A DNA stretch of 64,000 nucleotides, from the NCBI RefSeq assembly GCF_009914765.1, contig NZ_WYDS01000001.1, forward strand, positions 186,001 to 250,000. The letters run 5' to 3'. Source of the DNA: Halodesulfovibrio sp. MK-HDV (GTDB lineage Bacteria; Desulfobacterota; Desulfovibrionia; Desulfovibrionales; Desulfovibrionaceae). This document shows positions 32,001 to 33,312 of this stretch, piece by piece. Positions within the stretch are counted from its first letter, which is position 1, and every line of letters begins with the position of its first letter. A model generated the notes under the pieces. The model searched no databases and was not told the DNA's origin. It worked only from the letters and a program-made list of their open reading frames with translations. Made by a program: the position numbers and the translations under genes.

Positions 32001-32513
32001 GTGAATAGTATGCAAGAACAAAAGACACTGTTTGTTGATTACTCCAAATGTATCGGTTGCGAAACATGCGAAGCCGTATGTCGCTTTCTTCACGATACTC
32101 CGCGGATAGCCATGTCTCGCACTATTGAGGGTGAAATAGTCCCTTTATATTGTCAGCACTGTGAAAACGCAGCTTGTCAGCGTGTTTGTAAGCGTGGTGC
32201 AATTTCTCGTGATTCTCGCGGTGCTGTACTGCATGATCCTATGAAGTGTCGCGGCTGTGAAACAAAAGATTGTTTGATCGCGTGCCCGTATGCAGCATTT
32301 TTTGCTACATGTAAGGGCGTTGCTGTGGCAAAGTGTGATTTATGTAAAAAGCGCAGGGCAGAGGATATGCTTCCGGCTTGTGTCGAGATGTGTCCGTGTG
32401 ATGCTATTAAATATGTTGATCGCGAAGATATTGCATCGTTGAAAACGTCTGCTTCAGAAGAAGCATTTAAGCGTGTGATGGCGCATATTCGTCCTAAAAA
32501 GTTTGTAGATTAA
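32001..32513 (+). CDS. Four-cluster 4Fe-4S ferredoxin-type electron carrier
   Basis: A 170-residue iron-sulfur protein of the HycB/HydN/DmsB type. Cysteine groups are CIGCETCEAVC (near 17), CQHCENAACQRVCKRG (near 51), CRGCETKDCLIACPYA (near 83) and CDLCKKRR with CVEMCPCD (near 112 and 127), enough for four [4Fe-4S] clusters. GTG at 32001 is preceded by AGGAG at 5 bases. No signal peptide, so cytoplasmic. It probably passes electrons between the flavoprotein encoded just upstream and an oxidoreductase, the molybdoenzyme at 28032-29954 being the nearest candidate. Confidence 0.87.
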   Translation: MNSMQEQKTLFVDYSKCIGCETCEAVCRFLHDTPRIAMSRTIEGEIVPLYCQHCENAACQRVCKRGAISRDSRGAVLHDPMKCRGCETKDCLIACPYAAFFATCKGVAVAKCDLCKKRRAEDMLPACVEMCPCDAIKYVDREDIASLKTSASEEAFKRVMAHIRPKKFVD

Positions 32514-32655
32514 TTTCTTGTTGGGCGTTTATCGTTTGCGACTCAATAATGAGAAGCACAAAGTAGTATCTGGTTACGTTAGTCTTCAAAGGTAGTTGTT
32601 TTCTAGATAGAAATAGTTGTGCAGATTAAGTTACAAATAGCATAAAAAATTTCGC

Positions 32656-32691
32656 AAAAAATGGTGGAGTGATATACTCCACCATTTTTTT
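32656..32691. terminator. Bidirectional terminator between the ferredoxin and bcp genes
   Basis: AAAAAATGGTGGAGT and ACTCCACCATTTTTT enclose a GATAT loop, with A and T runs on both sides; it overlaps the bcp stop codon. Confidence 0.9.
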
Positions 32692-33163
32692 ATGCGTTTT
32701 TTTCAATGTATTCGAGCACCGTTTTTGCGTGGTCTGCTGTTTTAAATTTATTAAAGACTTGTTCAATTTTTCCATCCTTTCCGACAAGAAAGCTTATGCG
32801 GTGAATACCGTCATACATTTTACCCATAAACTTCTTTTCACCCCATACACCAAAGCGTTCTGCTATTTCATGTTGTTCATCAGACAGTAATGAGAAGGCC
32901 AGTAGTTGTTTTTTGGAAAATTTTTCCAATTGTTTTACGGGGTCTGGACTAATGCCGAGAATAGCAATTCCCATAGAATCAAATGTGTCTAGGTTGTCAC
33001 GCAACCCTTGTGCTTGTGTGGTTCACCCCGTGGTTGATGCTTTGGGATAAAAGTAAACAAGAACACGTTCCTTGCCTTGAAAGTCTGCGAGACAGATTTC
33101 TTCTCCCGCTTGATTTGTTAAACAAAAGTTTGGGGCGGGATCTCCCGGCTTTAATGTCTTCAT
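32690..33163 (-). CDS. bcp: Selenocysteine-containing peroxiredoxin, Bcp/PrxQ family
   Basis: Thioredoxin-fold peroxidase reducing hydroperoxides in the cytoplasm. The minus strand from ATG 33163 (AAGGAG upstream) encodes MKTLKPGDPAPNFCL..., reaches an in-frame TGA at 33025-33023 (codon 47), and continues in the same frame to 32690, for 157 residues, the normal Bcp length. Around the TGA the protein reads YFYPKASTTG-U-TTQAQGLRD; family members have PGCTTEA with the peroxidatic Cys exactly there. The TGA is therefore best read as selenocysteine. The resolving Cys five residues later is Gln, leaving Cys14 and Cys24 as other thiols. A short hairpin follows the TGA. Standard callers would truncate the gene to 32690-33004. 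Confidence 0.88.
32991..33008 (-). promoter_or_regulatory. Candidate bacterial SECIS hairpin in bcp
   Basis: In the minus-strand transcript the sequence GGUUG-CGUGA-CAACC (plus a G-U closing pair) forms a 5-6 bp stem with a five-base loop containing GU. The loop begins about 24 bases after the U of the UGA, inside the distance range of bacterial SECIS elements recognised by SelB. Folding was judged by eye. Confidence 0.55.
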
Positions 33164-33312
33164 AGACGCTCCTTATTGCGTAACAGGCTTAATATGCCCC
33201 GAGATTGAAAAGGGGCTGCCTCTATTCTATAGCTTTCCAACAGGTCTTCGTATGGTATCATGAATTTGCATGTAAATCTCTATGGTAGAAATACTCTGTT
33301 TTTAGAGAGGCA

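Follow-up and report, generated by a model that had tools for sequence, protein, structure and literature searches.

The minus strand of the analysed window, a 64,000-nucleotide stretch of the genome of Halodesulfovibrio sp. MK-HDV, a marine sulfate reducer, very probably encodes a selenoprotein peroxiredoxin, 157 residues long and of Bcp/PrxQ type, in which selenocysteine (Sec) is the peroxidatic residue, number 47. We read the sequence as a selenoprotein gene and not as a pseudogene because the genome has the Sec machinery, the in-frame TGA is kept in five of five orthologues, pN/pS is low, a hairpin follows the TGA, and homologues have either Cys or TGA at position 47.

A Bcp gene containing one in-frame TGA

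The minus-strand frame from 33163 to 32690 has a single internal stop, the TGA at 33025-33023, and closes with TAA. Its translation begins with M, reads YPKASTTG, then TGA, then TTQAQGLRD, and ends in NA. If the TGA is counted as a residue, the product is 157 aa long and scores 243.3 bits against NF006960 (thioredoxin-dependent thiol peroxidase, PRK09437; cut-off 140), the match covering profile positions 1-155 of 156; against Pfam AhpC-TSA it scores 119.9 bits. Four places in the genome match NF006960, and the window gene alone exceeds the cut-off. The peroxiredoxin active site PxxxTxxC/U is present as P40, T44 and residue 47. An AlphaFold model built from 8 sequences has a mean pLDDT of 81.6, and its best PDB matches include Bcp/PrxQ entries, with the Bcp chain of 9a4d ranked first. 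A search of 32600-33300 against Rfam gave six weak matches, every one far below its gathering score.

An earlier note, made from the sequence alone, had described a Bcp frame open on both sides of one TGA, with ribosome binding site and start intact and the TGA at the catalytic Cys. These points hold: the 157 codons match nearly the full NF006960 profile, AAGGAG lies 5 nt before the ATG (Table 1), and the TGA aligns with Cys in 91 rows from the phylum and eight from other phyla. Ordinary gene calling, as the note also stated, loses the active site, the sole table 11 ORF of at least 80 aa on the gene's stretch and strand being a 104-aa fragment with a TTG start (33004-32690). Because calling with TGA as a stop yields this piece, an enzyme with which these anaerobes defend themselves against peroxide can easily escape notice.

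Table 1. Features of the predicted Sec-Bcp gene, in window coordinates.
Feature	Position	Strand	Evidence
Predicted gene for a Sec-Bcp/PrxQ peroxiredoxin: 157 codons, among them a single in-frame TGA, and a TAA stop	32690..33163	-	Translation, profile matches, orthologues in four other species of the genus
TGA, predicted Sec codon, residue 47, peroxidatic position, TxxU motif	33023..33025	-	Translation, alignments
AAGGAG ribosome binding site, 5 nt upstream of ATG 33163-33161	33169..33174	-	Direct reading
bSECIS-like hairpin GGGTTG-CGTGA-CAACCT	32991..33007	-	Folding, comparison across orthologues

A terminator-like inverted repeat of 16 pairs (32656..32690; placed on the plus strand by the scan) overlaps the last base of the gene and sits between it and a convergent ORF, 32001-32513, whose product is Cys-rich and ferredoxin-like.

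Alternation of Cys and Sec at position 47

Bcp homologues were collected by a search of 348 genomes of the class, in which all 61 matches with E <=1e-16 were read, and a search of 395 genomes of the phylum, in which 50 other matches with E <=1e-30 were read and weaker ones left out. Among the resulting 111 Bcp rows, position 47 is Cys in 91 and TGA in 20, and TAA or TAG in none; the alternation that the earlier note had proposed looking for at this codon thus extends across the phylum. The column is Cys in 91/91 Cys-form rows of the phylum and in 8/8 rows from other phyla. Two of the weaker, left-out matches (L081 and L083) also have TGA at the position-47 site, and three more (L080, L082 and L084), in which the TGA precedes PYC, are peroxiredoxins of other types.

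In a 65-row tree, which covers part of a 119-row set, the distribution of Sec needs eight changes, at least seven of them forced by the starred branches. A quick tree of all 119 rows gives seven changes, three of them forced, counted against only the 35 rows that carry a Cys at +5, the usual resolving position. The changes counted on these trees indicate that Sec has apparently been gained or lost several times in Bcp.

Resolving cysteine and proposed catalytic cycle

The only Cys residues of the window protein besides residue 47 are Cys14 and Cys24, and it therefore has no usual resolving Cys: that of the 2-Cys Bcp/PrxQ type, at +5 or in a later helix, is absent. The usual position holds Gln in four of the five Halodesulfovibrio orthologues, the window protein among them, and Val in one. 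A +5 Cys occurs in 0/20 Sec forms versus 32/91 of the phylum's Cys forms (Fisher p 0.0007, with kinship ignored); it is present in E. coli Bcp and missing from the Alteromonas Cys enzymes. The replacement of the resolving Cys by Gln was described correctly in the earlier note, but its tie to Sec does not stand, since Cys homologues from Alteromonas have Gln there too. Loss of the resolving Cys was accordingly rejected as a mark of the Sec form, close Cys homologues also being without it.

The selenolate would, by analogy with the family, reduce H2O2 or organic peroxides and become a selenenic acid, which an external thiol, for instance thioredoxin, would most likely reduce, giving a 1-Sec, GPx-like cycle. 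This cycle is our best guess, and its reductant and substrate are inferred.

A different course, which we think unlikely, is that Cys14 and Cys24 serve as a resolving dithiol within the protein, in which case the selenoprotein would not be a 1-Sec enzyme. Both residues are found in 5/5 Halodesulfovibrio Sec forms; Cys24 never occurs without Cys14 (14/14 rows: 6 Sec, 7 Cys from the phylum and 1 from other phyla), and in the AlphaFold model strands span 14-17 and 22-24, where the pair may form a cross-strand dithiol. Against an internal dithiol, 14/20 Sec forms are without the pair, and two proteins (L108 and L118) have it together with a +5 Cys. In the 119-row set, this N-terminal Cys pair comes and goes together across several lineages of Bcp, among Sec as among Cys forms.

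In glutathione peroxidases Sec is likewise said to go with the lack of a resolving Cys. For Bcp as a whole, we offer tentatively, and hold somewhat less probable than its opposite, the proposal that Sec arose repeatedly and only in lineages without the +5 Cys, letting a one-residue Bcp turn over through outside thiols; the Halodesulfovibrio gene would be one such case, in a Bcp acquired from Gammaproteobacteria. The resolving-position pattern is in any case a rule that can be tested.

Selenocysteine machinery and the proposed decoding of TGA

The MK-HDV assembly (54 contigs totalling 4.17 Mb; completeness 97.29%) contains a tRNA-Sec scoring 84.6 bits (gathering score 47), also called by ARAGORN as tRNA-SeC with anticodon TCA, together with selB (385.6 bits), selA (630.3 bits) and selD (344.4 bits), all over their cut-offs. 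The earlier note had named the absence of selABCD and tRNA-Sec as what would speak against a selenoprotein; tRNA-Sec, selA, selB and selD are all present. Because tRNA-Sec is found in 10/10 genus genomes, the presence of Sec-Bcp within the genus does not track it.

The selD gene of this genome (L013 1393-2493, minus strand) has an in-frame TGA of its own, KAAG-TGA-AAK, followed by a strong hairpin (-9.9). The same genome encodes a further Sec-type peroxiredoxin at L029 1363-2013 (contig C8, about 53320), which is of a different Prx type and has 216 aa with GGW-TGA-PYC; weak matches with one TGA are found in G003, G006, G007 and G008 as well.

Downstream of the Bcp TGA, where the earlier note had suggested a search for a bSECIS element, there is a hairpin with a 6-bp stem and a 5-nt loop, whose loop G at 33000 is 23 nt after the TGA. 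The bSECIS model, as given in an excerpt of PMC13188914, has a stem of 4-16 bp and a loop of 3-9 nt with G as its first or second base, at a distance of 16-37 nt from the UGA. The hairpins of the five orthologues, with stems of 6-8 bp and the loop G at 23 nt in each, lie within these limits in 5/5 cases. Synonymous shuffles reach the observed hairpin energy in 0.0015-0.0225 of draws, the five genes being related and not independent. Among seven Cys homologues tested, six have no hairpin and one has a hairpin at +0.3 kcal/mol. Strong hairpins (-5.1 to -11.9) are present in six of seven other Sec Bcp-like genes tested, L083 having just -0.7; ten further Sec genes (L101, L110-L112 and L120-L125) were left out of this comparison. 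Folds of 63 nt prefer other structures in the MK-HDV gene (-9.3; the hairpin has -6.5 when shorter stretches are folded) and in G006, and in G003 a rival hairpin wins at 4/4 lengths tried.

Codon conservation in the hairpin was dropped as a stand-alone test. The five orthologues have 95 columns with an invariant residue that more than one codon can encode, and the codon is identical throughout in 20 of them; within codons 53-57 it is identical at 4/5, with p 0.0068 at that place and p 0.33 anywhere in the gene.

We propose that SelB and Sec-tRNA(Sec) would decode UGA 47, aided by the hairpin just downstream, and that Sec would thereby be inserted as the peroxidatic residue, as comparison among the homologues suggests. 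Reading of the TGA in some other way, for example as Trp under an altered code or through near-cognate read-through, would also fit a frame that stays open beyond it; with tRNA-Sec and SelA/B/D present, and with Cys in 91/91 Cys-form rows of the phylum at this site and Trp never, we consider it very improbable.

Conservation and selection within the genus

The genus was sampled by 10 genomes, one per species. A Sec-Bcp gene whose one TGA falls at this codon is present in five of them (MK-HDV, G003, G006, G007 and G008), the window gene being 79-87% identical to the four others; a relative at 80% lies on NZ_JADMLB010000059.1 of Halodesulfovibrio sp. isolate N3. Three genomes (G002, G005 and G009) carry instead a Cys Bcp of 41-43% identity, and G001 and G004 have merely weak matches to other peroxiredoxins.

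Pairwise pS among the five orthologues is 0.57-0.85, with synonymous sites near saturation, and pairwise pN/pS is 0.09-0.29 upstream of the TGA and 0.10-0.21 downstream. The gene is not dead, we conclude, because the TGA has been kept at near-saturated pS with low pN/pS on both sides of it. That a chance nonsense mutation is unlikely had been argued in the earlier note, and the TGA kept in 5/5 orthologues with selection on either side bears this out. A Cys-type Bcp broken by such a mutation is a simple account of one in-frame stop, nonsense mutations being generally common; against it stand a TGA shared by five species at this divergence, purifying selection on either side, and the Sec machinery and hairpin, and we find a pseudogene scarcely credible. 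We give equally little credence to the TGA as a true stop with the TTG-start fragment as the real product: an ORF of 104-106 aa matching the fragment is open in all five species, but purifying selection acts on codons 1-46 as it does on the others, these codons have their own ribosome binding site and ATG, and the fragment is without T44 and residue 47.

Relationship to gammaproteobacterial Bcp

On the 65-row tree the five Sec genes group in a single clade, which joins the Bcp rows of Alteromonas, Pseudoalteromonas, Vibrio and E. coli with support of 100/99; on the 119-row quick tree they fall inside the gammaproteobacterial group (99), beside E. coli (90). The best matches outside the genus are in Alteromonas (58-61% identity) and in Salmonella, Klebsiella and E. 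coli (59.2-60.9%; E. coli 59.2%). The gene is, judged from these trees and identities, of the gammaproteobacterial Bcp type, and the simplest reading, with just eight tree rows from outside the phylum, is that it was probably transferred from Gammaproteobacteria and then changed from Cys to Sec. The Cys relatives at about 60% identity would be well suited to comparison with the Sec form in a study of the advantage that selenium gives.

A search of phage records gave 16 matches, none above 60.5% identity, and nothing points to a phage link. The nearest, OR845319.1 663-1130, is in a 3.5-kb record named Escherichia phage and encodes a Bcp 60.5% identical to the window protein, as in enterobacteria; it is possibly host DNA.

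Comparison with known systems

PrxU (NF040737), a name that we take to be that of the Sec peroxiredoxin of Eubacterium acidaminophilum, is also a peroxiredoxin model, but the window protein scores 38.6 bits against its cut-off of 270 (233 positions). The likeness to the NF006960/PRK09437 Bcp proteins of E. coli and Alteromonas extends over the full length of the family. E. coli Bcp differs in having Cys for Sec plus a Cys at +5, whereas the Alteromonas proteins differ in having Cys for Sec and share the Gln at +5 with the window protein.

No paper on the Halodesulfovibrio Sec-Bcp gene was found by title or abstract in our searches of open-licence papers. Sec peroxiredoxins have been counted before: in the excerpts cited, PMC5029168 gives Sec 'Prx' in 78 organisms and PMC2398784 gives 253 sequences of pfam00578 Sec peroxiredoxins with TxxU, Bcp being named in neither excerpt. 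Excerpts of two other papers do name it, one listing a COG1225 (Bcp) Sec peroxiredoxin that has the TxxU motif (PMC9312934) and one reporting 43 Sec peroxiredoxin sequences of COG1225 (Bcp) in the Sargasso Sea set (PMC1088965). The window protein is like these in being of Bcp type, with Sec as the peroxidatic residue and T three residues before it; compared by list description, no difference in kind was found, the window gene being a Bcp of gammaproteobacterial type. Sec-Bcp is already known as an enzyme type, and the window gene is, as far as the literature searches show, a new member.
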